From an uncultured Eudoraea sp. (GTDB taxonomy: Bacteria > Bacteroidota > Bacteroidia > Flavobacteriales > Flavobacteriaceae): DNA of 41,957 bases. The notes beneath the pieces were generated by a model. The model was not told the origin of the DNA. It was given only the letters and a program-made list of their open reading frames with translations, and did no database searches. The stretch covers positions 1 to 41,957 of the forward strand of contig NZ_CAMYIP010000162.1 of assembly GCF_947258525.1 (NCBI RefSeq). The letters are read 5' to 3'. Positions 6,797 to 23,867 of this stretch are shown here, one piece after another. Numbering within the stretch: position 1 is the first letter of the stretch; the number at the start of each line of letters is the position of its first letter. The translations under genes and the position numbers were made by a program.

Positions 6797-6839
6797 ACAA
6801 TTTAGCCAATAGGATAACAATAAGAAATGATAATTATCA
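6797..6839 (-). promoter_or_regulatory. Fnr-like operator plus -7 element for the 147-aa gene
   Basis: The operator core TGATAATTATCA (6828-6839) is a perfect 12-bp palindrome, flanked as A..G. On the minus strand, 23 bp further on, lies TAAATTGT (6804-6797), a partial TAnnTTTG. The gene start at 6695 is about 100 bp beyond, giving the longest leader of the set. Confidence 0.6.
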
Positions 6840-6868
6840 GGAGTATTGCGGAGTTATTTCAATTAGAA

Positions 6869-7288
6869 TTAGTCCGGTCTTCGCTTCTTTAAAATGCCCC
6901 CGGCATAATTGAATACCTCTGATTTCAGGACTTGAAATTGTTGTAAACAATTCACCACATTAGCTTTTAGTTGCTCATGTTCAGCATGTACATCTTCATC
7001 TCCCTGACCATACTTACATTCCAAAGCACCACCCAGTTTATTTTCATGTTGTACTATTTGTCCTTCTAATCTGGTTTTATACTCATTAATCGTCTTAAGT
7101 CGCTCGAGATAATCCTGTAAACGCTCAAACAAGTTAGGTGTATCGGGTTCAAAAACATAGGAGTGAAGCAATTCTTCAATAAACAGCAATTCATCTTTCA
7201 TTAAATGAAAGGAGGATTTCCATTGTTGTGAATCTATATGGAATTTTTCCAGTGCATTTAGTTTGCTATCTTCCGTTTTATTCTTCAT
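6869..7288 (-). CDS. Small helical protein, member 2 of the three-paralogue family
   Basis: 139 residues from the ATG at 7288 (a TTG lies just before at 7291). It is helical, charged and cytoplasmic, ending in a basic tail LKKRRPD. Shared features with its two paralogues are WKSSFHLMKDELLFIEELL, VQHENKLGG and LKSEVFNYAGGILKK. It is adjacent to the 147-aa paralogue on the same strand but separated by 173 bp containing that gene's own operator, so it is probably a separate transcription unit. Its own operator lies 51 bp upstream of the start. No function is known to me. Confidence 0.7.
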   Translation of the reverse strand: MKNKTEDSKLNALEKFHIDSQQWKSSFHLMKDELLFIEELLHSYVFEPDTPNLFERLQDYLERLKTINEYKTRLEGQIVQHENKLGGALECKYGQGDEDVHAEHEQLKANVVNCLQQFQVLKSEVFNYAGGILKKRRPD

Positions 7289-7307
7289 CAAAATGAATCC
7301 TATATTT

Positions 7308-7350
7308 TAAAACTACTTCCGATTTAAAGTAAGGACAATGATCTAAATCA
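7308..7350 (-). promoter_or_regulatory. Fnr-like operator plus -7 element for the 139-aa gene
   Basis: The operator is TGATCTAAATCA (7339-7350), flanked A..T. After 23 bp on the minus strand comes TAGTTTTA (7315-7308), five of six matches to TAnnTTTG. The start codon lies 19 bp further on. The site falls just beyond the stop codon of the MBL gene (7359). Confidence 0.65.
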
Positions 7351-7358
7351 TGTGCCAG

Positions 7359-8723
7359 TTAAAAAATAAGCTCTGCGGTTTCAAATAATTCCGGAATTTG
7401 GACATTCCATTTATAGATCTCTTCTATTTTATCCTTGAATTCATCTAAAGCTTCCTGCTCTCCATGTATCAAAAAAACGCGTTCCGGAATATTTTTTATG
7501 GAAGCCATCCAGTCCAGCAACTCTTTTTGATCTGAGTGGGCCGACAGACTTTCTTCGTGATAAACACTGGCTTTTACGTCATAATATTTTCCAAAGATCT
7601 TAATCTCACTAGCCTCTTCTAAAAGGGCCCTTCCGCGTGTTCCTTCGGCCATGTAACCAACCAGTAAAATATTGGTATTCGGAATATCTACCATTTGTTG
7701 TAAATAGGTGAGAATTCTTCCCCCTGTAACCATGCCACTTCCGGCAATAATAATTTTTGGTCTGGGATCGTCTATTGTTTCCCAGGTTTGTCTATATGAA
7801 TCAATAATATTTACATGCCCGCACATTGCACTATATTCCTTTGCCGACAATTTATGCCAGTCGGGGAATCGTTCGAAAATGGTAAGTACATTATTGCCCA
7901 TAGGGCTATCAACAAAAATGGGAATATTAGGTATTTTATTCTTCTTATAAAGTTTCCAGAATAAATACATCAACGATTGCAAACGTTCTACTGCAAAAGA
8001 AGGAATAAGGAGATTACCTCTTTCGTATAGTGTTTTATTTACGAGTGAAATCAATCTGTCTTCAACCTTATCCGGGGGATGTAATTTGTTTCCATAGGTA
8101 CTTTCAACAAAAAGGAAATCGGCCCACTCAGGCTTAACCGGTGAGTCCAACAATAAATCGTCTGGCCTTCCAACATCACCTGAAAAAACAAAACGCTTCC
8201 CGGAAATTTCCAATTCAATAAAGGTACTACCAATTATGTGCCCATTATATCTGAATCTAAAACGGATATTCTCAGAAAGTTGCGCCCACTGGTTCAATTC
8301 TTCCACCCTGAATAAATCTATTGCATTTTCTGCATCTTGTAAATTGTACAATGGCATTGCCGGCTTATGCTTACTATAGCCCTCCCTATTTGCAATTTCT
8401 GCTTCTTCCTCATTTATCTTTGCGCTATCGAGCAATATTATTCTGGCAATTGCCAGTGTAGGAGCAGTTCCAACAATAATACCTTTAAAGCCCGCTTTTA
8501 CTAATCTGGGCAAGTAGCCTGTATGATCCAGGTGACCATGTGTTAATAAAACAATATCTATTGAACTAACCGGAACGGGCAGTGGTTTCCAATTGGAAAT
8601 TCTAAGATCTTTCCTCCCCTGAAACAAACCGCAGTCTATGAGAATATTCTTCTCAGAACTTTCGAGATAGAATTTAGATCCGGTTACAGTACCCGAAGCC
8701 CCTAAAAAATGTACTTTAACCAT
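7359..8723 (-). CDS. Beta-CASP metallo-beta-lactamase protein (CPSF/Ysh1-like RNA-processing nuclease)
   Basis: 454 residues. The metal motif THGHLDHTGYLP gives H62, H64, D66 and H67. GHIIGSTFIEL supplies the next His and FSGDVGRPDD the bridging Asp. Beta-CASP features follow: FVDSPMG (motif A), IAGSGMVTGGR (a GxGM-type block) and EESLSAHSDQKELLDW with the late His, then FLIHGEQEAL. The family comprises zinc-dependent RNA endo/exonucleases related to CPSF-73. It lies 18 bp downstream of the ATP-cone/nuclease gene and is likely the last gene of a three-gene unit starting at 10044. No KH or other RNA-binding domain is fused. Confidence 0.92.
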   Translation of the reverse strand: MVKVHFLGASGTVTGSKFYLESSEKNILIDCGLFQGRKDLRISNWKPLPVPVSSIDIVLLTHGHLDHTGYLPRLVKAGFKGIIVGTAPTLAIARIILLDSAKINEEEAEIANREGYSKHKPAMPLYNLQDAENAIDLFRVEELNQWAQLSENIRFRFRYNGHIIGSTFIELEISGKRFVFSGDVGRPDDLLLDSPVKPEWADFLFVESTYGNKLHPPDKVEDRLISLVNKTLYERGNLLIPSFAVERLQSLMYLFWKLYKKNKIPNIPIFVDSPMGNNVLTIFERFPDWHKLSAKEYSAMCGHVNIIDSYRQTWETIDDPRPKIIIAGSGMVTGGRILTYLQQMVDIPNTNILLVGYMAEGTRGRALLEEASEIKIFGKYYDVKASVYHEESLSAHSDQKELLDWMASIKNIPERVFLIHGEQEALDEFKDKIEEIYKWNVQIPELFETAELIF

Positions 8724-8741
8724 TATTTCAATTTAATGGTA

Positions 8742-9584
8742 TCAAAACTTGCAAAGCGATCCTACTTCTTTGAGAATTTTAGTTTTCCTTGTATCGGACA
8801 CCCCTAAGTGGTCCAGGTAGAAACTATCTTTTAACAATTGACGACACAATACTACATCTCTGCTTAACAAAAATTGTTTTTCTCTTTTCGTCAAAAGTGT
8901 TGAAACTGTAATGGGATATAGCCCAAGCCTGTCTATACGATCTTTTATGCTATTTCCTTTTGGATAGTCCCAACTAAGAAGATAAAGCCCTGTACAATTA
9001 CCATAAATTATAGCGTCTTTGGTAAATCGTGTATTTGTGGCTACCCAGCATTCATCGGGCTCCCTGATATTTGAAATACTGTTATCCTCAGTATTTTTAA
9101 TATCCTGATATCTGGAATAAATGTATAAAGGAATCTTAACATTACAATTGCGACCCTGTTCTCCGTGAAATTTACACTCAATAATTATAATAGATCCGTT
9201 TTTTTCAGCAACCACATCTATTTCATGACTTACGCATTTACCAACAACAGTCTTGCCAACCTCAGTTTTGTATCCCGAATACTTTAATACCGAACTTAAA
9301 AACTTTTCAAATGGAAAACCAGTAGGGCCCAACTCATATATGGCCTTTTTTAGTTTATATTTTGATGCGTAAACCGGTTTCTTGCGTCTTAGAAAGCTAT
9401 AGGCCCTATTATATAATTCTTTGGTTGTAATTCCATCATATAATTCTTCCTTGACTAGAGTTAAAATTTGGGAAATTAATTTACTGTCTGCCCCACTTCG
9501 CTTTAAAGAAGAGCGTAACTTCTCTTCCGAGAATAGCACTTTGTCCCCCGAAGCTTTAATAATGAAAAAATCTTCATTTGCCAT
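8742..9584 (-). CDS. ATP-cone domain fused to a PD-(D/E)XK (Mrr-like) nuclease domain
   Basis: 280 residues. Residues ~5-85 match an ATP-cone (IIKASGDKVLFSEEKLRSSL, YDGITTKELYNRAYSFL), the nucleotide-sensing module known from NrdR and ribonucleotide reductases. Residues ~90-200 look like a Mrr/restriction-endonuclease-like fold: GFPFEKFLSSVL, then GKCVSHEIDVVAEK (D123) and SIIIIECKFH (E136, K138), giving the D-x(12)-E-x-K catalytic signature. The C-terminal ~70 residues are unassigned. It is positioned between the baeRF-like and beta-CASP genes. No methylase or specificity gene lies nearby, so a role in classical restriction is unlikely. Confidence 0.82.
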   Translation of the reverse strand: MANEDFFIIKASGDKVLFSEEKLRSSLKRSGADSKLISQILTLVKEELYDGITTKELYNRAYSFLRRKKPVYASKYKLKKAIYELGPTGFPFEKFLSSVLKYSGYKTEVGKTVVGKCVSHEIDVVAEKNGSIIIIECKFHGEQGRNCNVKIPLYIYSRYQDIKNTEDNSISNIREPDECWVATNTRFTKDAIIYGNCTGLYLLSWDYPKGNSIKDRIDRLGLYPITVSTLLTKREKQFLLSRDVVLCRQLLKDSFYLDHLGVSDTRKTKILKEVGSLCKF

Positions 9585-9639
9585 TATATACTCTAATTAA
9601 GGTGGTCCAAAACGTAATTATAATATCCTAAGCGATACT

Positions 9640-10044
9640 TTATTTATTAAAATATTCCCTTACCAATGCTTTGACCTGATTTTCAGTCATACTATCTGCC
9701 TTCTCCACAGTTTTGACTTTTGATGCCAGAGTTTTATAATTTTCATTTAATTCTTTGTAAAATTTGGCATTAGTATCTGCCGGACCAAAAATTGCTATGG
9801 CTTGCGCATCTTTTATTGTCTTAGCCAATTCCTTAAAATATTGTCTCAATTGATGTTTCTCTCTTTCCAGATATTTGCTGTCCTGAACAACATCCTGTGG
9901 ACCCCATCTGGTCTTAGAGCGTGCTCCGCCCTTTGGGTTGAAGAAATCAATTTCTGAATAAACAGTATTGAATCTAATATCTTCATTTTGTAGTGTTACC
10001 AGATGTGCCTTTTCCTTATCTAACCAAATTCCAATTTTCTTCAT
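9640..10044 (-). CDS. Probable baeRF (bacterial eRF1/Pelota domain-2-like) protein
   Basis: 134 residues. It opens with KKIGIWLDKEKAHLVTL, an RNase H-like first strand pair as in eRF1 domain 2. After a variable insert it has AIAIFGPADTNAKFYKEL and then VEKADSMTENQVKALVREYF. The GPA-x-x-K-x-x-x-x-K-E-L plus final helix matches bacterial eRF1-like proteins, often annotated as translational machinery or host-attachment-like protein. It is the first gene of a likely operon with the ATP-cone nuclease and beta-CASP gene. The family is known from comparative genomics to be associated with ribosome hibernation and stress genes. The assignment rests on motif recognition only. Confidence 0.55.
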   Translation of the reverse strand: MKKIGIWLDKEKAHLVTLQNEDIRFNTVYSEIDFFNPKGGARSKTRWGPQDVVQDSKYLEREKHQLRQYFKELAKTIKDAQAIAIFGPADTNAKFYKELNENYKTLASKVKTVEKADSMTENQVKALVREYFNK

Positions 10045-10100
10045 GGCTATATTGTTGTGAGTTACTATTGAATTCCTATGTCCAAATTATAATGCCCCTA

Positions 10101-10142
10101 TAATCTTAATCCGAATCATCATTTGTAAAATGATGGTTATCA
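10101..10142 (-). promoter_or_regulatory. Fnr-like operator with weak -7 element for the baeRF-like gene
   Basis: TGATGGTTATCA (10131-10142), flanked A..G, overlaps the stop codon of the USP gene above it. The best -7 element is TAAGATTA (10108-10101) after 22 bp, only four of six matches. This is the least certain site of the set. Confidence 0.4.
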
Positions 10143-10988
10143 GTCTGTGTATGGGAGTATAAGAAATGGTATATTGATATTAAAACTAACCTTTTCTATT
10201 ACGGGTTCGCGGGTTAATTTCTCTAAAAAACCATGTTGGTAACGAATCATTGCCAGCATATCAATACCCAATTCATCAATGAAATCAGTTATTGCCTTGG
10301 TTTTGTTAGTAAAATCGGGCATCCAATGAATCGTATGTCTTATTTGACCTAAATACTCCCTTAGTGTATATAAATTTGATTTCTGAACCGGGCTAAGTCT
10401 TTCTTCTTCATTTATATGTACTATGCAAATGTTAGAACTACAATTTGATGCCAATGTTTGAAGTGGCTGCAAAACTCTGGCATTGTAACTCTGTTTGTAA
10501 TCTGTTGCAAAAGCAATCTCTGTAGGTAACATGAACTCTATTTCCCCCGGTATAGTTAATATGGGACAATCCTTAACGGCATTTATAGCATTAATTACGC
10601 TGCTTCCCAGAAATATAGATTTGGCTCCCGTCTTCCCTTTATTGCCCATTACAATGAGATCGGCACTGGTTTCTTTAATGGCTTGTTTTAATGCATCAGT
10701 CAAAGTTTCATTTTTTGAATGAATACTAATATGATGCCTGGGATTTCCTGAATCAAGATTTATTTTATGTAAAAATCCATTAAGCCCCTCCATAGATTCC
10801 TCGCCCAATTGTTGTAATAAACTTAGTTTACGACCTGCGGCCAGGCTATTGCTTTTAAGGGGTGTATGCTCAGTGTATGCATTAAGAATATGGAATGAAC
10901 AATTGTAATCTTGAAATAATTGCTTGATATAAAAGAGCGCATTATAGGAACTATGCGAAAAGTCTGTTGCAACAAGAATATTTTTCAT
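10140..10988 (-). CDS. Universal stress protein, two tandem USP domains
   Basis: 282 residues: two USP folds, ~1-140 and ~150-282. The first keeps the ATP-type motif G-x2-G-x9-G-S in MGNKGKTGAKSIFLGSS. The second has lost it and carries the sequence HGFLEKLTREPVIEKVSF shared with its neighbours. It starts with the usual KNILVATDFSHSSYNAL. It is the third gene of a three-USP run (gaps of 18 bp), so it is very likely expressed from the promoter at 12730-12772. Confidence 0.95.
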   Translation of the reverse strand: MKNILVATDFSHSSYNALFYIKQLFQDYNCSFHILNAYTEHTPLKSNSLAAGRKLSLLQQLGEESMEGLNGFLHKINLDSGNPRHHISIHSKNETLTDALKQAIKETSADLIVMGNKGKTGAKSIFLGSSVINAINAVKDCPILTIPGEIEFMLPTEIAFATDYKQSYNARVLQPLQTLASNCSSNICIVHINEEERLSPVQKSNLYTLREYLGQIRHTIHWMPDFTNKTKAITDFIDELGIDMLAMIRYQHGFLEKLTREPVIEKVSFNINIPFLILPYTD

Positions 10989-11006
10989 TAAATTTTCTGA
11001 TTTACA

Positions 11007-11840: not shown

Positions 11841-11858
11841 TGGTACGAATTTTAAATG

Positions 11859-12729: not shown

Positions 12730-12772
12730 TAAAAGTACTACTTAGCAGTACAGGAAACCATGACATTAATCA
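12730..12772 (-). promoter_or_regulatory. Shared Fnr-like operator plus -7 element, minus direction (three-USP unit)
   Basis: The core TGACATTAATCA (12761-12772) is flanked A..G. On the minus strand, TACTTTTA (12737-12730) follows after 23 bp, five of six matches to TAnnTTTG, and lies 25 bp before the USP start at 12704. Confidence 0.65.
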
Positions 12773-12803
12773 GTTAATCAACTCTTTAAATTTTTTAAAT
12801 TAG
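12761..12803 (+). promoter_or_regulatory. Same operator used in the plus direction, for the thioredoxin gene
   Basis: From the same core (12761-12772) the plus strand has TAAATTAG (12796-12803) after 23 bp, five of six matches, 19 bp before the trxA start. A palindromic site at equal distance from two divergent -7 elements suggests co-activation of both genes. Confidence 0.6.
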
Positions 12804-13171: not shown

Positions 13172-14011
13172 TCATTCATGCAATACCAGGAAAGGAATAT
13201 CTGTATGGTAACTAATTTCTTCAACTGCCGGCGTGAAGAGAATTCGTTGAAAAAAGTTTAGATTTTTGGCCACCATAGCTACAAGGTCTATATCTCTGCT
13301 TTCTACAAAACACTGAATAGACGTTTCCAATTTGGATCCTGTTAAGGTGTGAAAACTATGATCTATACCCCGAAGATAATCATGTAAAAAATCTTTGTTT
13401 CTCAATTGATCTTCAGTTAAAACTTCACCTTTTTTAGAAATATGAACAACTCTCAAAATAGAATTATTCATAGCCGCCATTTCAACCAGAGTGTCCAGAA
13501 CTTTGACATCATATGCAATATGAAAATCTGTTGGGAAGGCTATTTCTTTAGGTGTTTTGTATGTAGAATTTTCGGGTACTGCCAATAAAGGACATTTTAC
13601 CTTAGTTATCACATCACCGGTATTGCTTCCCATGGCTACTTTTTTAAGTCCGGAAGCACCTTTAGTACCCATGATAATAAGGTCAATCTTTTTATCTTCT
13701 AATTCCCTCTTTATGCCGTCTGTGAAAAAGTCATATTTTGCTGTTGAAACAAAGGAATGCAGTTCATTATGGTGCTGTTCTTCAATATATTCTAATAGCT
13801 TTTTAAGGTCCTTTTTACTTTGAGTCAAAACCGTTTCCTTTAACATTACGGAGCTACCTTTAACTGATGTCCCGGCACCTGAATAGGGAGGAATTGGATT
13901 GATATGGATTATGTGGAAAATACATTTTGTTTTTTTAAATAATTCAAGCCCATAATTTATGGCATTACTTGAATTCTTTGAAAAATCTGTCGGGATTAAA
14001 ATTCGTTTCAT
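13172..14011 (-). CDS. Universal stress protein, two tandem USP domains
   Basis: 279 residues. The N-terminal domain begins KRILIPTDFSKNSSNA and carries MGTKGASGLKKVAMGSNT, a good G-x2-G-x9-G-S motif. The C-terminal domain has NLNFFQRILFTPAVEEISY in the corresponding place, so nucleotide binding there is unlikely. It is convergent with trxA and transcribed from its own Fnr-like promoter, with the best -7 element of the minus-strand set. Confidence 0.95.
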   Translation of the reverse strand: MKRILIPTDFSKNSSNAINYGLELFKKTKCIFHIIHINPIPPYSGAGTSVKGSSVMLKETVLTQSKKDLKKLLEYIEEQHHNELHSFVSTAKYDFFTDGIKRELEDKKIDLIIMGTKGASGLKKVAMGSNTGDVITKVKCPLLAVPENSTYKTPKEIAFPTDFHIAYDVKVLDTLVEMAAMNNSILRVVHISKKGEVLTEDQLRNKDFLHDYLRGIDHSFHTLTGSKLETSIQCFVESRDIDLVAMVAKNLNFFQRILFTPAVEEISYHTDIPFLVLHE

Positions 14012-14033: not shown

Positions 14034-14076
14034 CAAAATTACAATCACTATAATAACCGTAAAATGACTACCATCA
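14034..14076 (-). promoter_or_regulatory. Fnr-like operator plus perfect -7 element for a USP gene
   Basis: The core TGACTACCATCA (14065-14076) is flanked A..T. After 23 bp on the minus strand comes TAATTTTG (14041-14034), a full TAnnTTTG match, 22 bp before the start at 14011. The site sits 27 bp beyond the stop codon of the response-regulator gene. Confidence 0.7.
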
Positions 14077-14103: not shown

Positions 14104-15162
14104 TTAATATGGAATCCTTTGTAACCGATCCATATCTAAAATTTTGATGTCCCGGTCTTTAATCTCAATTATTCCCTCTTTCTTAAAGTTAGATAAGGTT
14201 CTTATCAGGGTTTCCGTAGCCATTCCGGCAACACTGGCCAGATCACTCCTTAAAACGTGAATATTGCCAGCTTCATCTTCCTGCAACTTCTCTGCAAACT
14301 TAAGTAAGGTGGACGCCGTTTTTTTACGTACAGAACCATAGGCCATTTGGAGTAACTGATCTTTAATCTGTGTAAGGTCTTCAGATAAAAGCTGTAATAA
14401 CTCCAGAACCAATTCGCTATTTTGCTCTAAAACCATTTTTAACTGATCCTTGTGTAGGCCAATAAGTACAGAATCTTCCATGGCAGTAGCATATTCCTGG
14501 TAGGGTATATTCTTTGTAAAACTTGTAAAACCAAAAAAATCATCCGACCTGTAAATTCCAGTGATTAACTCCTTCCCCTGTTCATCCAGCTTATGGGTTT
14601 TTGCATTCCCTTCTATCACCAGATAAACCAAATTGGAGTTGTCGCCCTCGCGGTATATTGTATCACCCAATTGAAACCGGAATTCCTCTCCATTATCATC
14701 AATAAAATTCTTAAGCTGATGAATGTTCCTGACCCGCTGATCAATTCCTGCATCAAGGTCTATTATATTTTGTTGCGCCTCTTTGAGAATGTTGGCCTTG
14801 GCAATCCTGCTTTCAATTGCACCAATAAGTTCCGATTCTTCAAATGGTTTAGTGAGGTAGTCATCTGCTCCCATTTCCATTCCCAGCCTAACATCTTTAT
14901 GCTCCGTTTTAGCGGATAGAAATATAAAAGGGATTGTATTGGTTTTATTGTCACCAGACAAAGCCTTTAAAACCCCATAGCCATCTAGTTTTGGCATCAT
15001 TATATCACAAATAATAACGTCCGGGTGGCTGGCTTTGGCCATCAAAACTCCCTTTTCACCGTCGGGGGCGGTAAGGACTTTGTAATTTGCCAATTCCAAT
15101 AATTCTGCCGTGCTCTCCCTTAAAGCATTATCATCTTCAATTAATAAGATCTTTTTCATCAT
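14104..15162 (-). CDS. Response regulator: receiver domain fused to a Crp/Fnr-type DNA-binding protein
   Basis: 352 residues. The receiver domain spans ~1-125, with acidic pair E9-D10, phospho-acceptor D53 (ICDIMMPKLDG) and K105 (YLTKPFEES). A helical linker (~125-155) leads to a cyclic-nucleotide-fold domain (~155-260; FQLGDTIYREGD, YLVIEGNAK). A Crp-type winged helix (~275-345) follows, with the recognition helix around ATETLIRTL, keeping the E317-x3-R321 pair that Crp/Fnr proteins use on TGA/TCA half-sites. I see no cAMP-binding signature and no Fnr iron-sulfur cysteines, so control is probably by phosphorylation. A second ATG at 15159 is an equally good start. It lies 51 bp after the LOV kinase gene, its likely partner. 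Confidence 0.88.
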   Translation of the reverse strand: MMKKILLIEDDNALRESTAELLELANYKVLTAPDGEKGVLMAKASHPDVIICDIMMPKLDGYGVLKALSGDNKTNTIPFIFLSAKTEHKDVRLGMEMGADDYLTKPFEESELIGAIESRIAKANILKEAQQNIIDLDAGIDQRVRNIHQLKNFIDDNGEEFRFQLGDTIYREGDNSNLVYLVIEGNAKTHKLDEQGKELITGIYRSDDFFGFTSFTKNIPYQEYATAMEDSVLIGLHKDQLKMVLEQNSELVLELLQLLSEDLTQIKDQLLQMAYGSVRKKTASTLLKFAEKLQEDEAGNIHVLRSDLASVAGMATETLIRTLSNFKKEGIIEIKDRDIKILDMDRLQRIPY

Positions 15163-15213: not shown

Positions 15214-17019
15214 CTAGAATTCTTCACCATTGCCACCGGATGGGAGTGTTACTGTGAATGTACTCCCTTTGTTTTCCACACTTTTAAAGCTAATATCCCC
15301 CCCGAGATTTTCAACATGAGATTTGACAATATTAAGACCTATTCCGGTTCCCTGGGTGAGAAGAACATTATCGGCTCTGAAATATCGCTCAAATATGTGT
15401 TTCTGATCTTTCTTTGGAATACCAATTCCCCTGTCTATAATATGGAAATAAATCGTATTTTCATCCAAATTAATTTGTAGGTCTATTTCAGTTTCTTCCG
15501 GAGAATACTTAATGGCGTTGTGCAATAAATTAGTTAATACCAATGAAACAATCTTCTCATCCTGATGTACAATTACATCCTCAATATTCATAGGATAGTT
15601 GATTTTTTGGCCGGTCTTAAGCAGCATATACAAAAAATCATTCAATATACCAGTAAGATAATGCACGCCGCTGGTAATCGATTTCAAGTGTTTAGTTCTT
15701 AATTCCTGCTGATCAGCTGCGGTATATTTGCCAACCAATGTAGCCGAGGTTAGAATAGTACTTAAAGGAGTTTTAAACTCATGAGAAACCATGGAAAGGA
15801 ATTTAGTCTTGAGATCACTTAGTTCCTTTTCTTTTAGTAAAGCATCATTGAGCTCCTGGGTTCTGCGCGCAACGGTTTTCTCGAGATTTTGAGTATAATT
15901 TTTTCTTTCGGAGATATCAAGAGCAATAACTACTGTTAATACTTTATCCTCCAGGTTGGAAGATTGTAAATGAACTTCAACAGGGTAAGTAGTTCCATCC
16001 TTGCGCTTGAAAAGGGTTTCGAAAGTAACTTTCTTATGGTTGTTTAAATTCAAGGGATCAAGAATTTCCCTTAGCCTATCTTCCGAAATACCGGTAATTA
16101 AATCCTTAATGGTCATTTTTCTTAATTCTCTTGAACTATAACCGGTATTTTTCTTAGCGCCATAATTCACATGTGAAAATCTTAGTGTTTCTGGATCAAA
16201 AACATAAATTTCGTTTAGTGAATCATCAAAAATCTTTAAGAAATGTCTTATTTCTTCTTCAGCTTTTACTCGTTTGGTAATATCATTTTGTATTCCTACA
16301 AAATGAGTGATCTTACCCTCTTCATTACGGATTGGGTTAATGGATACCTCGTTCCAGAATAGAGTGCCGTCTTTTTTATAATTCCTCACCTGAACCTGAC
16401 ATTTTTTGCCTGTCTTAATGGCATTGCGCATTATTTTAACCCCTCTTTGATCGTTATCATCATTCTGAAGGAACCGGCAGTTTCTGTTAAGTACTTCAGA
16501 TTCTGAATATCCTGTAAGCTTCCTAAATGCCTTGTTCACATAAATAATGGGGTGATCCTCTTTTAAGGCATCTGAAATAATAACACCATTCTCTGTAGCT
16601 TCCAGGGCCTCACTTTTTATATCAAGATTTTTTTCAATTTGCACTCTTTCAGACAAATCATTAACTAAGACCAGGACATAGGTATTCCCGTATATGGAAA
16701 ATGGATTAAATCTGACATTCAGAGGAAATTCCTCTCCGGATTTTCGCTGCCCATGAACGCATCGGCCTCCGGCCATTTTTTCCTTCTTTACATCTCTGTA
16801 ATATTTTGTTACGTGTTCTTTATGGGCTTTTTTATATTTGTCAGGAATTAATTCGGCGAGTGGTTTCCCTAAAAGCTCTTTATGCGTATATTCAAACAAG
16901 TGGGACGCCTTTTTATTAATGGAGACAATTAACTGATCTTTATTTACAACGATTATTCCTTCCGATACGGCTTCGGAAAGTAAATGACATATATCAATAT
17001 TTTTATCAAAAACACGCAT
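15214..17019 (-). CDS. PAS-LOV-PAS sensor histidine kinase, soluble, probable blue-light receptor
   Basis: 601 residues with no membrane segments. PAS1 is ~10-125. The second PAS domain (~138-250) has LOV hallmarks: NRNCRFLQ with the candidate flavin-adduct cysteine C181, then VRNYKKDGTLFWNEV and HFVGIQNDIT. PAS3 is ~258-372. A coiled coil leads to HisKA with H413 (MVSHEFKTPLS), then HATPase with N box NLLHNAIKYS, G1 DRGIGIPKKD, F IFERYF and G2 GTGIGLNIVK. It sits in the order HPF, USP, kinase, response regulator, with gaps of 24-51 bp. The flavin is inferred from motifs; other ligands for PAS1 and PAS3 remain open. Confidence 0.9.
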   Translation of the reverse strand: MRVFDKNIDICHLLSEAVSEGIIVVNKDQLIVSINKKASHLFEYTHKELLGKPLAELIPDKYKKAHKEHVTKYYRDVKKEKMAGGRCVHGQRKSGEEFPLNVRFNPFSIYGNTYVLVLVNDLSERVQIEKNLDIKSEALEATENGVIISDALKEDHPIIYVNKAFRKLTGYSESEVLNRNCRFLQNDDNDQRGVKIMRNAIKTGKKCQVQVRNYKKDGTLFWNEVSINPIRNEEGKITHFVGIQNDITKRVKAEEEIRHFLKIFDDSLNEIYVFDPETLRFSHVNYGAKKNTGYSSRELRKMTIKDLITGISEDRLREILDPLNLNNHKKVTFETLFKRKDGTTYPVEVHLQSSNLEDKVLTVVIALDISERKNYTQNLEKTVARRTQELNDALLKEKELSDLKTKFLSMVSHEFKTPLSTILTSATLVGKYTAADQQELRTKHLKSITSGVHYLTGILNDFLYMLLKTGQKINYPMNIEDVIVHQDEKIVSLVLTNLLHNAIKYSPEETEIDLQINLDENTIYFHIIDRGIGIPKKDQKHIFERYFRADNVLLTQGTGIGLNIVKSHVENLGGDISFKSVENKGSTFTVTLPSGGNGEEF

Positions 17020-17066: not shown

Positions 17067-17903
17067 CTAGACCCTAAAAGTAATTACAGGCAATTTGGCA
17101 TGATTAACTACATCTTCTCCAATACTACCTTTGAAAAAATGTGCTATTCCGCTTCTTCCATGTGTAGGAATGGCTATCAAATCGGCATTTACCTCATTTG
17201 CATGATTAAAAATGCCTCCTTCAATTGAATAATCAGAAACGTATATGATTTCAGTATTTGAAGGCAATTCTCCATTGTGAGCTACTTTAATGAATAAATC
17301 TGCTTTCTTTCTAATCTCTTCCGTACTCATAAATTCTTCATTGGGTAAATTCACAAATACCAGATGAAGCTTAAGGTTCCATTCAGCAAAAAGCGCCCTG
17401 GCACTATGATAGGCCTTAATACTCTCAACGCGAAGATCACAGGCAAAAACAACCAATTCAGGATTAAATGAAGGAGTAGGTTTTTTAATAACTAAAACCG
17501 GAATGTCTGAAGTTCGCACCACCTTTTCAGTATTGGAACCAACGAATATCTCACTGACACCACTTGCACCATGAGATCCCATAATTATTAAGTCAATATT
17601 TCTCTCTTTGGCCAACTCATTGATCTCACTGAATATCTTGTAGTTTTGAACCATTTCTGTAACCTTAACTCCTTTTAAATATGGTTTATCCAAAAAAGTT
17701 TCATAACGTTTTTTGGCTAATTTCATATAAAAGTGAGCTTCTGCCGCTTCCTCAGATTCACTTTTGGTTAAGTAAGCTTCAGACAGACCCATCATGTGGA
17801 GTACAAGAATTTCTGAATTAAAATCTTTTGCCAGTTTAGCTGCTACTTCCAGTGCATATGCGGCGTGTTCCGAAAAATCTACAGGGACTAATATTTTGTT
17901 CAT
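17067..17903 (-). CDS. Universal stress protein with two intact nucleotide-binding USP domains
   Basis: 278 residues. Unlike the other five USPs here, both halves keep the motif: MGSHGASGVSEIFVGSNT in the N-terminal domain and PTHGRSGIAHFFKGS in the C-terminal one. The start NKILVPVDFSEHAAYAL is standard. It is located between the hibernation factor (24 bp upstream) and the LOV kinase (47 bp downstream) in one likely operon, so it would be made with the signalling pair and the ribosome factor. Confidence 0.95.
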   Translation of the reverse strand: MNKILVPVDFSEHAAYALEVAAKLAKDFNSEILVLHMMGLSEAYLTKSESEEAAEAHFYMKLAKKRYETFLDKPYLKGVKVTEMVQNYKIFSEINELAKERNIDLIIMGSHGASGVSEIFVGSNTEKVVRTSDIPVLVIKKPTPSFNPELVVFACDLRVESIKAYHSARALFAEWNLKLHLVFVNLPNEEFMSTEEIRKKADLFIKVAHNGELPSNTEIIYVSDYSIEGGIFNHANEVNADLIAIPTHGRSGIAHFFKGSIGEDVVNHAKLPVITFRV

Positions 17904-17927: not shown

Positions 17928-18227
17928 TCAATACTTTTTAAAAATTTCCTTTCTCTTTCTTAGTTGGTTTTCCAATTCCTTTATTGTTGTGGCTGCGGCC
18001 TTTTCAAAGTTATCCTGACTAGATTTAGCAAAAATTCTTGGGCCCGGGGCACTCAATTGTATTTCACATACTTTACCCTTACCCGATGGGTCATTTTCTA
18101 ATTTAAAAAAGACATCTGCCTTAATGATCCAATCATATTTATTTGCCAGTTTTTCCAATTTAGAAGTTACAATTGCGCTCATAGATTCACTGGTTGGCAT
18201 TTGAACATATTGAATATTTATCGTCAT
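17928..18227 (-). CDS. hpf: Ribosome hibernation promoting factor, short HPF/RaiA type
   Basis: 99 residues, the length of short HPF/RaiA without the C-terminal dimerisation domain of long HPF. It shows the HPF/RaiA pattern: INIQYVQMPTSESMSAIVTSKLEKL in pieces, then ADVFFKLE, CEIQLSAPG, IFAKSSQDNFEKAAATTIKEL. These proteins bind the 30S decoding region and inactivate ribosomes in stationary phase. It is the first gene of the operon containing a USP, the LOV kinase and the Crp-fusion regulator, and is preceded by an exact Fnr-like palindrome. Confidence 0.92.
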   Translation of the reverse strand: MTINIQYVQMPTSESMSAIVTSKLEKLANKYDWIIKADVFFKLENDPSGKGKVCEIQLSAPGPRIFAKSSQDNFEKAAATTIKELENQLRKRKEIFKKY

Positions 18228-18250
18228 AATAGAATATTTAAAGTTTAGAT

Positions 18251-18293
18251 TAAAGATCGCACGGAGTATAATGTTAAACTATGACATTTGTCA
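18251..18293 (-). promoter_or_regulatory. Fnr-like operator plus -7 element for hpf-USP-kinase-regulator operon
   Basis: TGACATTTGTCA (18282-18293), flanked A..T, has 5-bp inverted arms around a two-base centre. The minus-strand -7 candidate GATCTTTA (18258-18251) is 23 bp away, four of six matches, and 23 bp before the hpf start. The same 12-mer recurs in inverse orientation upstream of the DoxX-like gene. Confidence 0.65.
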
Positions 18294-18386
18294 TTGTTGA
18301 CAGGTGTTGATCATAATTATACAGATACACCTTCCTCTAATTTAGAGATACTAATTAACCTGACCAAAAAACAATGAGAAATAGGC

Positions 18387-18824
18387 TCAAGTCCTGCCGT
18401 GATTACTTTCTTTCAGCAAAACAACAAGAACACCCATAATGATTACATTTTTAATAATATACTGCCCCAGAAGAGTAAGACCAAAGGGTGCTTGTGAGAA
18501 TACAAGATCCGGGAAAAAAAGAAATGGTAAGAAGGTCAGGATAATATGGATCAAAGCCAGCTTTAGGGCAAATTTCACAAAAAGGTGGCCTATTAATAAC
18601 AATCCAATCAAGGTTTCCCAAATTGCAAGTAAAATAATGGATATTTCCGGAGTAAGAATTCCAAATGTCAACTGCTCAATGGTTGCCTTGGCAAGATCCT
18701 CAGCGGGACTTACCCCTACAAAGAATTTGAGCATCCCGAACCACAGATATACAATACCTATGCTTACCGAAATGAAGTTGATTTTTGTTCTTCTATAAAT
18801 TAGGCGAGCTACTAATTCCTTCAT
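18387..18824 (-). CDS. DoxX-like small integral membrane protein
   Basis: 145 residues with four likely membrane helices: ~17-36 (FISVSIGIVYLWFGMLKFF), ~58-78, ~85-105 and ~115-137. The first carries the YLWFGMLKFFVGVSPAE pattern common in DoxX/DUF417-like proteins of Bacteroidota. Biochemical function is not established; family members have been linked to redox and sulfur chemistry at the membrane. It is a single gene, but has its own Fnr-like promoter and so likely belongs to the same regulon. Confidence 0.75.
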   Translation of the reverse strand: MKELVARLIYRRTKINFISVSIGIVYLWFGMLKFFVGVSPAEDLAKATIEQLTFGILTPEISIILLAIWETLIGLLLIGHLFVKFALKLALIHIILTFLPFLFFPDLVFSQAPFGLTLLGQYIIKNVIIMGVLVVLLKESNHGRT

Positions 18825-18840
18825 CTTATTTCAAAAAAAG

Positions 18841-18883
18841 CTAAACTAAGGTATCTAAATACTATAAAAAGTGACAAATGTCA
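18841..18883 (-). promoter_or_regulatory. Fnr-like operator plus -7 element for the DoxX-like gene
   Basis: TGACAAATGTCA (18872-18883), flanked G..T, is the exact reverse complement of the site before hpf. TAGTTTAG (18848-18841) follows 23 bp on, five of six matches, 16 bp before the start at 18824. Confidence 0.68.
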
Positions 18884-19047
18884 TTTTTCTCTTACCAATT
18901 TAACCTTATAACAAGTCTTTTCAAGTGGATAAAGACTTAGATAATTTCTGTGCTGTAAAATAAAATTAAGAATAGTAATGCTTAAGTATTCTCAATTCGT
19001 TTACGATCCATAAAACTATTCTTAGTCCCAGAATACTAAAATGGCAA

Positions 19048-19090
19048 TGATCAAAGTCATTCTTTTATTTACTTAATGCGCTTAACTTTG
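19048..19090 (+). promoter_or_regulatory. Fnr-like operator plus perfect -7 element for the LytTR operon
   Basis: TGATCAAAGTCA (19048-19059), flanked A..T. TAACTTTG (19083-19090), a full TAnnTTTG match, follows after 23 bp. The ATG begins only 7 bp later, so the transcript would be leaderless or nearly so. Confidence 0.7.
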
Positions 19091-19097
19091 TTTTTGT

Positions 19098-19805
19098 ATG
19101 AAAAATAAATGCTTAAATACATTGGTTGTAGAGAATTCAAAGGTACAGCAGATTATTATATGTAAGCTGGTACATAATCATGATGACCTGCATTTGTCCG
19201 GCATATGCAACAACGCCATAGATGCTAACAGAATTATTAAAAATCACAAAATTGATTTAATTCTGCTCGATATTGAAATGCCCCATATAAATGGTTTTGA
19301 TCTTCTGGAGTCTTTAGATAAAAATATTGAGATCATAATTATTACAGCTAATCCAAATCACGCATTAAAAGCGTTTGACTATGGAGTAACCGATTATTTA
19401 TTAAAACCTGTAAAAATCGATCGATTTTACAAAGCCGTTAAGAAAGCATCTATTAATTATGGCAAAGTCTGTGAGCCTTCGGAAGAAGTTGAATTTTTAA
19501 AGGTGAGGAGCAACATGAAAAGTAGGAAGATCAATATAAAAGAAATTAAATGGGTGGAAGCGCTTGGCGATTACATAAAAATTATCACCGAAAATGAGAA
19601 CCTCATAGTGCTAAGTTCTATGAAATCAATTTCCGATAAATTACCTCATGATAGATTTCTTAGGATTCATAGATCATATATTGTAAATTTAAACAAGGTA
19701 GAAAAATTCGGATGTACAAGTGTGGAGATAGATCAACATCAACTACCCATGAGCAGAAAGCAAAAACAAAAACTTGAATTGCTTTTGGAGAAGGTTGATA
19801 TTTAG
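19098..19805 (+). CDS. LytTR-family response regulator without an adjacent kinase
   Basis: 235 residues. Receiver domain ~5-125: phospho-acceptor Asp in LILLDIEMPHING, Thr in IIITANPN and Lys in YLLKPVKID. The usual acidic pair is reduced (VVENSKV), so phosphorylation may be atypical. The LytTR DNA-binding domain is ~135-232 (IKEIKWVEALGDYIKI, FLRIHRSYIVNLNKV). It leads a run with a HlyD-type adaptor, an FtsX-type permease and an ABC ATPase, 37 bp to the next start. No LytS-type sensor is seen nearby. Confidence 0.92.
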   Translation: MKNKCLNTLVVENSKVQQIIICKLVHNHDDLHLSGICNNAIDANRIIKNHKIDLILLDIEMPHINGFDLLESLDKNIEIIIITANPNHALKAFDYGVTDYLLKPVKIDRFYKAVKKASINYGKVCEPSEEVEFLKVRSNMKSRKINIKEIKWVEALGDYIKIITENENLIVLSSMKSISDKLPHDRFLRIHRSYIVNLNKVEKFGCTSVEIDQHQLPMSRKQKQKLELLLEKVDI

Positions 19806-19842
19806 CAAGTTAAATTATACCCGATAACTCAAAACAAACTTG

Positions 19843-20946
19843 ATGAGATGCATTCCTTTTTCGTATAGAATACTTTCTAGCTTTCTCTTAATTTCTGTCT
19901 TTACAGGCTGTAATGATGGCCAGGAAAAGATACTACCCTCAGAAGTAACCATCACAGAATCTGTTTATTCATCAGTAACTATTCAACCAGATAGTCTTTA
20001 CCAGGTATACGCGGCTGTAGGAGGTATTCTGGATAAAAATTTCGTCGACGAAGGTGATACCCTGGCCAAAGGCACACCCATAGCTCAAATCATTAACAAC
20101 ACCCCTAAGCTCAACACCGAAAATGCAAAATTAAACCTGGAATTGGCAAGAGAGAATTATAGCGGTAGTAATGCTATAATTAAAGCCCTGATAGATGAAA
20201 TAAACGCTGCAGAACTTAAATACAAAAATGATTCTGTGAATTTTGCACGACAAAAAAATCTCTGGGAGCAAAATATTGGATCAAAAATAGAATATGAAAA
20301 TCGCAAACTGGCTTATGAATTATCAAGTAATAACCTGGCTTTGCTAAAAGGAAATTTCGAAAGAACAAAGTCAGAATTAAAAACAAAATTAAGGCAGGCA
20401 GAAAACAACTATCAGACTTCTTTAATCGCAACAAAAGATTTTACTGTAAAAAGTAAAATTAACGGCAAACTCTACGCGTTATACAAAAACCAGGGCGAAA
20501 TAATTAATACGATGGAACCCATTGCCGCTGTGGGGAGTGCAACTGATTTTGTAATTGAAATGTTAGTCGACGAAGTTGATATTGTGAAGTTGAAAACTGG
20601 TCAAACAGCATTGATAACTCTTGATGCCTATGGGACAAAAGTATACACCGCAGTTATCAGCAAAATTTATCCGAGAAAAGATGAGCGATCCCAGACTTTC
20701 AAAATCGAAGCACTTTTTACAGACCCGCCTGAAATACTGTATCCGGGATTGGCCGGAGAAGGCAATATTATTGTTTCCCAAAAAGAAAGTGCCTTGACTA
20801 TTCCCAAGGAATACCTTATTGGTGAAAACAAAGTGAGAACGGAAGAAGGCGTTGTCGAAATTGTAACGGGGATACAAGACATGGAACGCGTTGAAGTTCG
20901 ATCAGGTTTGGATGTGAATACCTACCTATTAAAGCCCAAAGAATGA
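19843..20946 (+). CDS. HlyD/MacA-type periplasmic adaptor lipoprotein
   Basis: 367 residues from the ATG at 19843 (a TTG lies just before). The signal ends in a lipobox SVFTGC with the lipidated Cys at about residue 22, so it is anchored in the inner membrane facing the periplasm. A biotinyl-lipoyl half (VGGILDKNFVDEGDTLAKG) is followed by a long helical hairpin (~90-200), the second lipoyl half (KINGKLYALYKNQGEIIN) and a beta-barrel part. It overlaps the permease gene by 4 bp (ATGA). It probably joins the ABC pump to an outer-membrane channel encoded elsewhere. Confidence 0.88.
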   Translation: MRCIPFSYRILSSFLLISVFTGCNDGQEKILPSEVTITESVYSSVTIQPDSLYQVYAAVGGILDKNFVDEGDTLAKGTPIAQIINNTPKLNTENAKLNLELARENYSGSNAIIKALIDEINAAELKYKNDSVNFARQKNLWEQNIGSKIEYENRKLAYELSSNNLALLKGNFERTKSELKTKLRQAENNYQTSLIATKDFTVKSKINGKLYALYKNQGEIINTMEPIAAVGSATDFVIEMLVDEVDIVKLKTGQTALITLDAYGTKVYTAVISKIYPRKDERSQTFKIEALFTDPPEILYPGLAGEGNIIVSQKESALTIPKEYLIGENKVRTEEGVVEIVTGIQDMERVEVRSGLDVNTYLLKPKE

Positions 20947-22205
20947 CTAACTGGAAGTTAATAATAAGTATTGCCAAAACGCATCTGTTAACCAAGATGA
21001 AGTCTACGGTAACCGCCTCTCTTGGTGTTACGTTTGGTATTGGAGCCTATATTACATTAGTAAGTTTTATGACCGGTTTAAATGGAATGTTAGATGACCT
21101 CATTCTAAATCAGACTCCTCATATACACATGTTTAATGAAATTGAACCTTCGGCAGAACAACCAATTTCTTTATACGACAAATTTGACGAAGGCTTCAAC
21201 GTGGTACATTCTATTAAGCCTAAGCAGAGCCAACTCAATATACATAATGCACTTCCCATATTACATTATTTAAAAGATCAGGAAAATGTGAAAGGTGCAA
21301 CACCTCAGCTCCGGTCACAGATATTTTACCTGTCCGGTTCCATAGAATTAGGTGGCAATCTTGTAGGTGTAGACATTATGGAGGAAGTGCGACTTTCAAA
21401 TATTCAGGATAACATTGTATCGGGTAGCCCGGAGGCACTTAGAAATACGGACAATGGAATTTTACTGGGATCAGGGCTGGCCAAAAAAATGTCATTAAGT
21501 GTTGGAAACCGTATACAGGTAAGCACCGTTAAAGGAACCGTTTTTCCCTTAAAGATCGTTGGAATCTATCAGAGCGGAATTGCTGAAATAGATAATGTTC
21601 AAAGTTTTGCGAATCTTAAAACCGTTCAGAGAATACTTGGAGAGGCAGAGAATTATATTACCGATATCAATATTAAACTATTCGACCTATCAGAAGCTCC
21701 AACCATGGCCAGGCAACTGGAAAAGCAGTTTAAAATTAAAGCCACTGATATTAATGAAGCAAATGCCCAGTTCGAAACAGGTAGCAATATCAGAAATATC
21801 ATTACCTATGCAGTTTCAATTACGCTGCTCATAGTAGCCGGCTTCGGAATCTACAATATTCTGAATATGCTTATTTATGAAAAAATGAAAGACATAGCCA
21901 TCCTTAAGGCAACGGGGTTTTCGGGAACAGATGTTCAGCTTATATTTATGAGTCAGGCCATGATAATTGGTGTTGCAGGGGGATTTATTGGATTGATAAT
22001 CGGATTTATTTTATCAAGGGTTATCGATAATATTCCGTTCGAAACCGAGGCATTGCCAACTATTAGTACATTTCCTGTAAATTACAATCCGGGCTATTAT
22101 GTTATCGGAATTACATTTGCACTTATTTCTACATTTATTGCCGGCTATTTACCCTCTAATAAAGCCAAAAAAATAGATCCTGTGCGAATTATTCGCGGAA
22201 CCTAA
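20943..22205 (+). CDS. ABC transporter permease, FtsX/MacB/LolE family
   Basis: 420 residues. One N-terminal helix (~20-40) precedes a large periplasmic domain (~45-285), and three C-terminal helices (~290-310, ~337-358, ~385-405) form the FtsX-like permease block, including MLIYEKMKDIAILKATGFS. This topology is shared by MacB and LolC/E-type permeases that move substrates from the periplasmic face (mechanotransmission type). With the preceding adaptor and following ATPase it forms a MacAB-like tripartite exporter; the substrate is unknown. Confidence 0.92.
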   Translation: MTNWKLIISIAKTHLLTKMKSTVTASLGVTFGIGAYITLVSFMTGLNGMLDDLILNQTPHIHMFNEIEPSAEQPISLYDKFDEGFNVVHSIKPKQSQLNIHNALPILHYLKDQENVKGATPQLRSQIFYLSGSIELGGNLVGVDIMEEVRLSNIQDNIVSGSPEALRNTDNGILLGSGLAKKMSLSVGNRIQVSTVKGTVFPLKIVGIYQSGIAEIDNVQSFANLKTVQRILGEAENYITDINIKLFDLSEAPTMARQLEKQFKIKATDINEANAQFETGSNIRNIITYAVSITLLIVAGFGIYNILNMLIYEKMKDIAILKATGFSGTDVQLIFMSQAMIIGVAGGFIGLIIGFILSRVIDNIPFETEALPTISTFPVNYNPGYYVIGITFALISTFIAGYLPSNKAKKIDPVRIIRGT

Positions 22206-22214
22206 TTCACAATT

Positions 22215-22889
22215 ATGGGAACGGTACTGGAAACAAACACTATTAACAAGCATTTTAGAAAACCTGTAGATTTTCATGTCTTAAAAGATATTAGCTTTAG
22301 CGTTAAAGAAGGAGAATTTGCCTCTATTATGGGCAAATCGGGTTCCGGAAAATCAACTTTACTTTATATTCTTTCCACTATGGATACCGACTATGAAGGT
22401 GAGCTGTTTTTAAATGAAGAACTCGTTACCGGTAAACCGCATAAAGAATTGTCGCAAATCAGGAACAGGCATATTGGTTTTGTATTTCAATTTCATTACC
22501 TGCTGTCGGAATTCACTGTGCTGGAGAATGTAATGCTCCCGGCTAAAAAATTAGCCTCTAAATCCTTTCAGGAAATTGAACACGATGCAATGGAGAAACT
22601 TAATATGCTGAACATTGGACATTTAGCAAAAAAAAGAGCTTTCCGGGTTTCCGGTGGTGAAAAACAACGCGTGGCTATTGCAAGAGCGCTTATCAATAAT
22701 CCCGATATCCTAATGGGTGACGAGCCTACAGGAAATCTTGATAGTTATAATGCCGAAAACGTTTTCCAAATATTTAAGAAGCTAAAAGAAGAGGAAGGGC
22801 TTTCTTTATTGGTCGTAACGCATGATTTAGATTTTGCAAAACGCACAGATCGAATAATAGAAATGGAAGATGGCACCATTGTTTCCTGA
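22215..22889 (+). CDS. ABC transporter ATP-binding protein (MacB/LolD type)
   Basis: 224 residues, a single nucleotide-binding domain. Walker A is GKSGSGKST, the Q-loop is in FVFQFHYLLSEFTVLENV, the signature is RVSGGEKQRVAIARAL, Walker B is ILMGDEPTGNLD and the H-loop is VVTHD. The length and the PTGNLD block place it with the LolD/MacB group. It starts 9 bp after the permease stop and closes the LytTR-led unit. Confidence 0.95.
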   Translation: MGTVLETNTINKHFRKPVDFHVLKDISFSVKEGEFASIMGKSGSGKSTLLYILSTMDTDYEGELFLNEELVTGKPHKELSQIRNRHIGFVFQFHYLLSEFTVLENVMLPAKKLASKSFQEIEHDAMEKLNMLNIGHLAKKRAFRVSGGEKQRVAIARALINNPDILMGDEPTGNLDSYNAENVFQIFKKLKEEEGLSLLVVTHDLDFAKRTDRIIEMEDGTIVS

Positions 22890-22912
22890 AATCTAGTAGC
22901 CAAATCCCAAAT

Positions 22913-23746
22913 TCAGGAATTATAACACAGTATCGGAACAGTAACCAAAGTTTCCATTCTTTTAACAATATCTCTATTAAAAACAGTGGCAAAGAGACCC
23001 TTATTCTCCCTTTCCAACATAACTAATACATCTGCATTCTCATCCCCTATATGCATCCTTAAACCTTGTTCTATACTATTGGCCAGTACCATGTGAAAAC
23101 TTATTTTTTTATATGGCACCTGAGCTTCCAATAATTCTTTAAACCATTCCATCTGCTGCATAGCAGCATATTCCTCTAAAGTGGGTATATGTACAACTTC
23201 TATTTCAGCGTCGTACTGTTCAGCTATTTCCGCCAGTTTTTCTATGGCAATAATATCTGCAGCTTCGAAATCGCTGGCGTAAGCAATCTTTTCAATGCTT
23301 TTATAACTATATTCAGGAGGAATAATTAGTATCGGGCACAGGTTTTTATCTATTAATTTATTCGCAATATTCCCACTGAAAAAACCCCGGGCAGAATGTT
23401 CATCTTTCATGCCAATGATAAGCAAATCAACAGGATCTTTTTGTATTCTGTCTCTAATTCCCTTGCTTATTGATGAATTTTCTGCAACCTCACAGCTTAG
23501 TTGATTTTTTTTTAAGTCCTGATTTAGATTTGTTAGGCAATAGTTTTTCAGAAGTTCCTTTTGCTCTTTCATTGCCAATACTTTTAATTGCTCAGAAGAC
23601 CTGATATTGGATGTGCCCACAGGGGGAATATCATATACATGAAATACCACCAGCCTGGCTTTTAATGTTTCACTTAGTTTCTTGGCATAAATTAGTGTTG
23701 AAATAGAATTCCTGTTACAATCAGTAGCATAGAGTATAGTGTCCAT
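22913..23746 (-). CDS. Universal stress protein, two USP domains with degenerate nucleotide motifs
   Basis: 277 residues. It begins DTILYATDCNRNSISTL, where the common TDFS is altered. The N-terminal motif reads IGMKDEHSARGFFSGN, so the second glycine and the terminal Ser/Thr of G-x2-G-x9-G-S are replaced. The C-terminal half also lacks the motif (ENKGLFATVFNRDIVKRM). It is therefore probably unable to bind ATP in the classical way. It is convergent with the ABC operon and divergent from the 149-aa gene, with two operators between them. Confidence 0.93.
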   Translation of the reverse strand: MDTILYATDCNRNSISTLIYAKKLSETLKARLVVFHVYDIPPVGTSNIRSSEQLKVLAMKEQKELLKNYCLTNLNQDLKKNQLSCEVAENSSISKGIRDRIQKDPVDLLIIGMKDEHSARGFFSGNIANKLIDKNLCPILIIPPEYSYKSIEKIAYASDFEAADIIAIEKLAEIAEQYDAEIEVVHIPTLEEYAAMQQMEWFKELLEAQVPYKKISFHMVLANSIEQGLRMHIGDENADVLVMLERENKGLFATVFNRDIVKRMETLVTVPILCYNS

Positions 23747-23768
23747 AACAAATCATTTAAATATGAAG

Positions 23769-23811
23769 TCAATTTACCTCATTTTACACCTGAATAATAT
23801 GATATTGGTCA
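23769..23811 (-). promoter_or_regulatory. Fnr-like operator plus -7 element for the last USP gene
   Basis: TGATATTGGTCA (23800-23811), flanked A..C. The minus-strand element TAAATTGA (23776-23769) follows after 23 bp, four of six matches, 22 bp before the start at 23746. Confidence 0.55.
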
Positions 23812-23824
23812 CAAAAGATCAACA

Positions 23825-23867
23825 TGACTTATATCATAAAAATTAGACCTAAGCTGAACTACTTTTA
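23825..23867 (+). promoter_or_regulatory. Fnr-like operator plus -7 element for the 149-aa gene
   Basis: TGACTTATATCA (23825-23836), flanked A..T. TACTTTTA (23860-23867) follows after 23 bp, five of six matches, 27 bp before the start at 23895. It lies only 13 bp from the oppositely oriented USP site. Confidence 0.65.

Follow-up and report, generated by a model that had tools for sequence, protein, structure and literature searches.

A fixed-distance Crp/Fnr-type promoter motif in a Eudoraea stress island and its genome, with two probable regulators

The stretch analyzed here (the window) is contig NZ_CAMYIP010000162.1, 41,957 nucleotides long and denoted C162, of the 3.8-Mb draft assembly (249 contigs) of an uncultured Eudoraea sp. 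It contains an island of genes for universal stress proteins (USPs), a ribosome-associated protein of the hpf type, thioredoxin, a histidine kinase and a regulator in which a receiver domain is fused to a CRP-type protein (receiver-CRP). Palindromic cores of the Crp/Fnr type stand in front of these genes, each at a nearly constant distance from a -7 element. The original prediction had listed ten such cores forming eleven promoters, and a scan of the window found all of them as described. The gap is 23 bp in ten of the eleven promoters and 22 bp at 10131. When six positions of the -7 element were scored, two elements were perfect, five had one mismatch and four had two. All cores are intergenic except that at 10131-10142, which shares 3 bp with the stop codon of the open reading frame (ORF) 10140-10988. 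The promoters and the associated genes are as follows.

6828-6839, minus strand: core (CTGATAATTATCAT including flanks, in promoter orientation); element TAAATTGT at 6797-6804, gap 23; directed towards 6252-6695 (minus strand)
7339-7350, minus strand: core; element TAGTTTTA at 7308-7315, gap 23; towards 6869-7291 (minus strand)
10131-10142, minus strand: core; element TAAGATTA at 10101-10108, gap 22; towards 9640-10044 (minus strand), an ATP-cone/Mrr gene and a beta-CASP metallo-beta-lactamase gene
12761-12772, bidirectional, plus-strand promoter: core; element TAAATTAG at 12796-12803, gap 23; towards trxA
12761-12772, bidirectional, minus-strand promoter: the same core; element TACTTTTA at 12730-12737, gap 23; towards three USP genes
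14065-14076, minus strand: core; perfect element TAATTTTG at 14034-14041, gap 23; towards the USP gene 13172-14011 (minus strand)
14104-15162, minus strand: receiver-CRP regulator, with receiver (REC), cNMP_binding-type and HTH_Crp_2 domains, helix GMATETLIRTLS
15214-17019, minus strand: histidine kinase, with a FixL-like first PAS domain (PAS1; H66, R86), a LOV domain (NRNCRFLQ), a third PAS domain, HisKA and HATPase_c
17067-17903 and 17928-18227, minus strand: USP and hpf-type ribosome-associated protein, respectively, upstream of the kinase and the regulator
18282-18293, minus strand: core; element GATCTTTA at 18251-18258, gap 23; towards hpf, USP, kinase and regulator
18872-18883, minus strand: core; element TAGTTTAG at 18841-18848, gap 23; towards 18387-18824 (minus strand)
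19048-19059, plus strand: core; perfect element TAACTTTG at 19083-19090, gap 23; towards a LytTR regulator and HlyD/FtsX/ABC genes
23800-23811, minus strand: core; element TAAATTGA at 23769-23776, gap 23; towards the USP gene 22913-23746 (minus strand)
23825-23836, plus strand: core; element TACTTTTA at 23860-23867, gap 23; towards 23895-24344 (plus strand)

The start codon of the LytTR gene (19098) lies 8 nt past the last base of its -7 element (19090), so this mRNA would be almost leaderless.

A chance origin of the motif was rejected by comparing the window with shuffled sequences. The strict palindrome RTGAYN4RTCAY occurs seven times, where 0.55 would be expected and none of 100 shuffles reached seven. 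The looser TGAYN4RTCA was counted 14 times, compared to a mean of 3.1 (maximum 9) in 200 dinucleotide shuffles, and cores with an element at gap 23 (two mismatches at most) ten times, compared to 0.37 (maximum 3). The remaining four TGAYN4RTCA cores of the window, at 3, 16448, 16985 and 28616, have no good element at gap 23. A set of 253 sites from 40 relatives refined the core, in promoter orientation, to [A/C]TGAY-N4-RTCAT, with the promoter-proximal T present in 96% of the sites and A or C at the distal base in 92%.

The prediction of a local regulon did not hold, because 23 of the 25 exact copies of the 43-bp pattern in the draft genome are outside the window. With up to two mismatches allowed, the pattern was found 267 times, compared to 130 for the reversed pattern, and the strict palindrome 105 times, compared to 37. 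When the gap was left free between 9 and 38 bp, 35 exact pairs of core and -7 element were obtained, 25 of them at gap 23 and ten scattered over the other 29 gaps. The same preference was seen in approximately 40 kb of sequence around the receiver-CRP gene in each of 40 relatives (1.51 Mb), where 107 exact pairs fell at gap 23 and no more than four at any other gap from 5 to 44. It was also seen in 80 named loci across the class, including Eudoraea, Arenibacter, Winogradskyella, Mucilaginibacter and Pedobacter (25 exact pairs, compared to three at most at other gaps from 10 to 39). Within 40 stretches around hits in the draft genome, 65 of 69 sites with up to one mismatch at gap 23 lie outside ORFs of at least about 80 amino acids, although such ORFs occupy 85% of the bases, and for 61 of the 69 an ORF on the same strand starts within 300 bp. 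The repeated motif is real and marks promoters. One 43-bp site, identical in sequence, is found at the end of both contig C95 and contig C103, which indicates some redundancy in the draft assembly.

According to the part of PMC9723704 available to us, mapped transcription starts in Flavobacterium psychrophilum place the sigma-A box TAnnTTTG at -12 to -5. With a 23-bp gap, the 12-bp core would occupy -47 to -36 and be centered at -41.5. This is the position, and the fixed distance, of class II Crp/Fnr promoters, as the original prediction had proposed from a center near -42. A Crp/Fnr-type protein would be predicted to bind there and to activate transcription.

Nineteen proteins encoded downstream of sites were chosen by eye for a Pfam scan, and 15 of them gave matches; gene names without model support are our own reading. 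The 15 are 2-oxoacid and pyruvate:ferredoxin oxidoreductases, an acetyl-CoA-synthetase-type enzyme, PPDK, a ribonucleotide reductase, a CcoI-type P-ATPase, FixS/CcoS, a cytochrome c, Rrf2, a radical-SAM protein that reads as HemN, FtsH, a LonB-like protease, Hsp20, a Ca-type ATPase and an Na/Ca exchanger. Microaerobic metabolism and protein quality control are thereby represented, among other functions, and the gene directly after the target ccoS encodes CcoNO. Further USPs are also found among targets outside the window. A target on another contig (C133, L068:6059-7249) matches the NCBIfam ribosome-hibernation model NF052287 with 98.7 bits, below the cut-off of 330, and would be a second hibernation-type protein with a site besides the hpf product of the window.

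Two candidate regulators stand out, and the first is the receiver-CRP protein itself. Its cNMP_binding and HTH_Crp domains both score above the Pfam cut-offs, placing it in the Crp/Fnr superfamily, and residues D10, D11, D53 (the phospho-acceptor) and K105 are conserved in 41 of 41 aligned orthologues. Its closest named relative is from an uncultured Eudoraea (85%). The protein is not FNR proper, since a receiver domain takes the place of the N-terminal cysteine cluster, and it is FNR-like in its site only. FixJ was ruled out as its identity by the CRP-type rather than LuxR-type output (66 bits, cut-off 255), and FixK by the fusion to REC (73 bits, cut-off 300).

The adjacent kinase may sense oxygen through heme bound to PAS1. 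A profile built from this domain in 12 kinases had FixL/DosP heme oxygen sensors as its 13 best PDB matches (E 1.8e-21 to 1.3e-14), followed by a multi-sensor kinase and then by LOV domains at E 2.2e-7 and weaker. H66 is conserved in 39 of 40 kinases, and a PAS1 histidine in about 69 of 75 named loci, an approximate count in which locus L237 is represented by a different PAS domain. From the alignment to FixL and its residue numbering, we take H66 and R86 to be the heme-contact positions. Against the NCBIfam FixL model the score is 125.5 bits, far under the cut-off of 850.

The second candidate, like the FixL-like and LOV domains of the kinase, was absent from the original prediction. It is encoded on another contig:

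C187, 6896-7591: FNR-like regulator, beside cbb3-oxidase genes that carry the motif

Its recognition helix, GTATESCIRIIS, nearly coincides with that of the receiver-CRP protein. The genome has eight cNMP_binding matches, and seven helices were read, leaving out a 147-amino-acid frame on C58. Only these two of the seven have the TE[ST]xxIR helix, and the other five carry different ones, such as GTTRAVVSR and GTVREVVSR. Cysteines 7, 10, 56 and 109, an unusual arrangement, were found in all 25 orthologues that could be parsed out of 30 loci. Parsing relied on the helix pattern, so that the conservation of the helix is partly circular, while the cysteine count is not affected. The four cysteines probably serve Fe-S or redox sensing. 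The FNR-like gene is itself preceded (C187:7618-7646, L073) by an exact core with a perfect -7 element at a distance of just 9 bp; bound at this distance, a protein would overlap the polymerase, and autorepression of the gene is possible.

Motif number was then compared with regulator content in 149 genomes of the family, using tables transcribed by hand. Receiver-CRP was found in 66 genomes (E up to 1e-40) and the FNR-like protein in 90 at 1e-50 and in 105 at 1e-25; exact motifs totaled 1169, compared to 21 for the reversed control (hand count). Genomes with both regulators had 14.2 exact motifs on average (n=36), those with receiver-CRP only 8.9 (n=30), those with the FNR-like protein only 6.6 (n=54) and those with neither 1.2 (n=29). 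The last group has smaller genomes (2.4 Mb), and the order is kept per Mb (3.8, 2.7, 2.0 and 0.5). In a strict set, genomes with receiver-CRP and no FNR-like match at 1e-25 averaged 9.2 motifs (n=17), compared to 1.1 where both were absent (n=27). This comparison supports the assignment of the 14104-15162 protein as a regulator of the motif, and the strict set, together with the means of single-regulator genomes, disfavors any single regulator. An extension to 118 genomes of the phylum found receiver-CRP in 17, all within the class. Motif number did not depend on receiver-CRP outside the family, and outside the class there were about 0.4 motifs per genome (35 in 89, hand count).

It is thus reasonable to think that the motif probably defines a class II regulon of the oxygen type, with two parallel regulators using one site and a genome-wide set of low-oxygen, redox and dormancy-type targets. 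A dimer of a Crp/Fnr-type activator would bind [A/C]TGAY-N4-RTCAT, centered at -41.5, and aid RNA polymerase at the Bacteroidota -7 box TAnnTTTG. One regulator would be the FNR-like protein beside the cbb3 oxidase genes, responding through its four cysteines to Fe-S or redox state. The other would be the receiver-CRP fusion, phosphorylated by the kinase with the FixL/DosP-like PAS1. This fusion would do the work of FixJ and FixK in one protein, and its home would be the island of USP, hpf and thioredoxin genes. In the lineage of the window, the added LOV domain could supply an input from blue light or flavin redox state.

Several observations weigh against this explanation. Other gaps in the window occasionally match at up to two mismatches (up to five at gap 27), so the four weakest elements are individually soft. 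R86 of PAS1 is present in 35 of 40 kinases and absent in five, and the spacing of the FNR-like cysteines differs from that of E. coli FNR. The genomes compared are related, and the p-value for the strict set (1.4e-7) consequently overstates their independence. In the class outside the family, motif number is no different in the presence of receiver-CRP (3.6, n=11) from that in its absence (3.9, n=7). Four genomes with neither regulator hold three to nine motifs; their completeness is 99% for G138 and 73-88% for G048, G051 and G147. The original prediction had named occurrence before unrelated genes as evidence against a regulon. Several targets, such as lipoproteins and the Na/Ca exchanger, indeed have no evident tie to oxygen and others have no Pfam match, but many form the expected low-oxygen set.

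One alternative is that the signal is not oxygen, the kinase reporting light through LOV or energy stress and the FNR-like protein nitric oxide or redox state. The LOV domain of the window kinase has the canonical motif with an intact cysteine and strong matches to solved LOV domains, and the best single match of the kinase is a LOV protein. The USP, hpf and hibernation-factor targets would also suit energy stress. Nevertheless, we consider this alternative unlikely. All 39 relative kinases have the FixL-like PAS but 35 of them lack LOV, which besides the window occurs in the other four and in four of 75 named loci; this distribution disfavors LOV as the ancestral input. Moreover, cbb3 assembly genes are among the targets, and cbb3 and heme genes of F. 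psychrophilum rise under oxygen limitation, as reported in the part of PMC9723704 at hand.

It is more doubtful still that the FNR-like protein is the sole binder, with receiver-CRP acting elsewhere and merely located among FNR targets. Such sites belong, in the textbook view, to FNR-like proteins, and the gene adjoins motif-bearing cbb3 genes. However, the 17 genomes of the strict set retain their motifs, and so do the islands around receiver-CRP. These were followed in 40 relatives, namely 12 of the 36 genomes with both regulators and 28 of those with receiver-CRP only, a group of 30 from which G089 and G124, lying on contig ends, were omitted. Across the 28 genomes without the FNR-like gene, at least 26% of the exact sites (75 of 256) crowd into islands that make up 1.1% of the DNA, a 26-fold enrichment. 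Of the 40 relatives, most of which lack the FNR-like gene, 38 retain a gap-23 site between the genes for receiver-CRP and the neighboring USP; the other two are G042, where no USP was seen, and G111, where the USP is 7.9 kb away. Counting sites with up to one mismatch at gap 23 where the gene is present in the island, hpf has its own site in 11 of 16 cases, ccoS in 9 of 9, ccoI in 7 of 11, hsp20 in 6 of 7 and trxA in only 4 of 25. The two regulator genes are about 1 kb apart in five genomes (G061, G071, G110, G121 and G134). Recurrent island targets also include a protein of about 134 amino acids (FYQKLGELFYAIAAADKVVR type) and a secreted one of about 200 (GTSxxHDWE type). The pair at 7359-9584 of the window, a beta-CASP RNA-type metallo-beta-lactamase and an ATP-cone/Mrr-like protein, recurs in the islands of 20 of the 40 relatives.

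We give very little credence to a further Crp/Fnr paralogue as the main binder, with the two named genes as mere correlates. The eight cNMP_binding matches leave room for one, and a different family, about 35% identical, is present in some of the genomes that have receiver-CRP only. Yet five of the seven proteins read have other helices, the strict set lacks such a paralogue at 1e-25, and motif retention in the absence of both named genes is clear in few genomes (four of 29 with at least three motifs). Equally improbable is receiver-CRP as sole binder, with the FNR-like protein using another site: site density is highest around receiver-CRP, but the 54 genomes with the FNR-like protein only far exceed those with neither.

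Returning to the two-regulator explanation, a broader proposal seems to us evenly poised between right and wrong. Bacteroidia may have evolved, separately from the rhizobial cascade, a one-step version in which a heme-PAS kinase signals to receiver-CRP, some marine lineages having added LOV for a joint reading of oxygen and blue light. The promoter code at -41.5 would be common to this pathway and to an Fe-S FNR-like factor, and the two would together govern a DosR-like dormancy and microaerobic regulon across the class. The main text of PMC9723704 does not contain "fnr" or "crp", the accessible parts of that paper and of PMC8510549 do not describe this system, and the searches made of the open-licence PMC literature found no such flavobacterial low-oxygen regulon. 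The analysis provides a large and ecologically central group with an explicit, testable code for promoters under low-oxygen control and names two regulators. If correct, it would tie USPs and ribosome hibernation to a low-oxygen regulon with two sensors.

The system can be compared with several known ones. The mycobacterial DosS/T-DosR dormancy regulon likewise has a kinase of the oxygen type, and its members include many USPs and a hibernation factor. DosR is of the LuxR type and uses another site, and the likeness is by analogy. LOV histidine kinases share the NCRFLQ motif, whereas here LOV is an extra found in some of the kinases, placed after a FixL-like PAS. With FNR, FnrL and FnrN the system shares the TGAY-N4-RTCA site, the class II distance and a gene beside cbb3 assembly genes, although cysteines 7, 10, 56 and 109 are unlike the arrangement of E. 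coli FNR. UspA and HemN are likewise among the FNR-type targets described in the part of PMC2908626 at our disposal. The sections of PMC2908626 and PMC4999443 available to us indicate that FNR and FixK sites are alike in Alphaproteobacteria, with cbb3, hemN and uspA as common targets. They also describe the FixL-FixJ-FixK cascade, in which, as proposed here, a heme-PAS-like kinase acts through a two-component regulator on a Crp/Fnr-type activator of cbb3 genes and hemN. In contrast to that cascade, the receiver and the CRP-type half are one protein in Eudoraea, so there is no separate FixJ and FixK, and the setting is a Bacteroidota genome with a -7 box, a USP/hpf island and LOV in some lineages. 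The presence of FnrN beside FixLJ-FixK in Alphaproteobacteria (PMC2908626 and PMC4999443, same sections) resembles the layout of two parallel regulators proposed here. If this explanation is right, the alphaproteobacterial layout of two sensors on one site, an Fe-S FNR and a heme-kinase pathway, would have arisen again with a different fusion.

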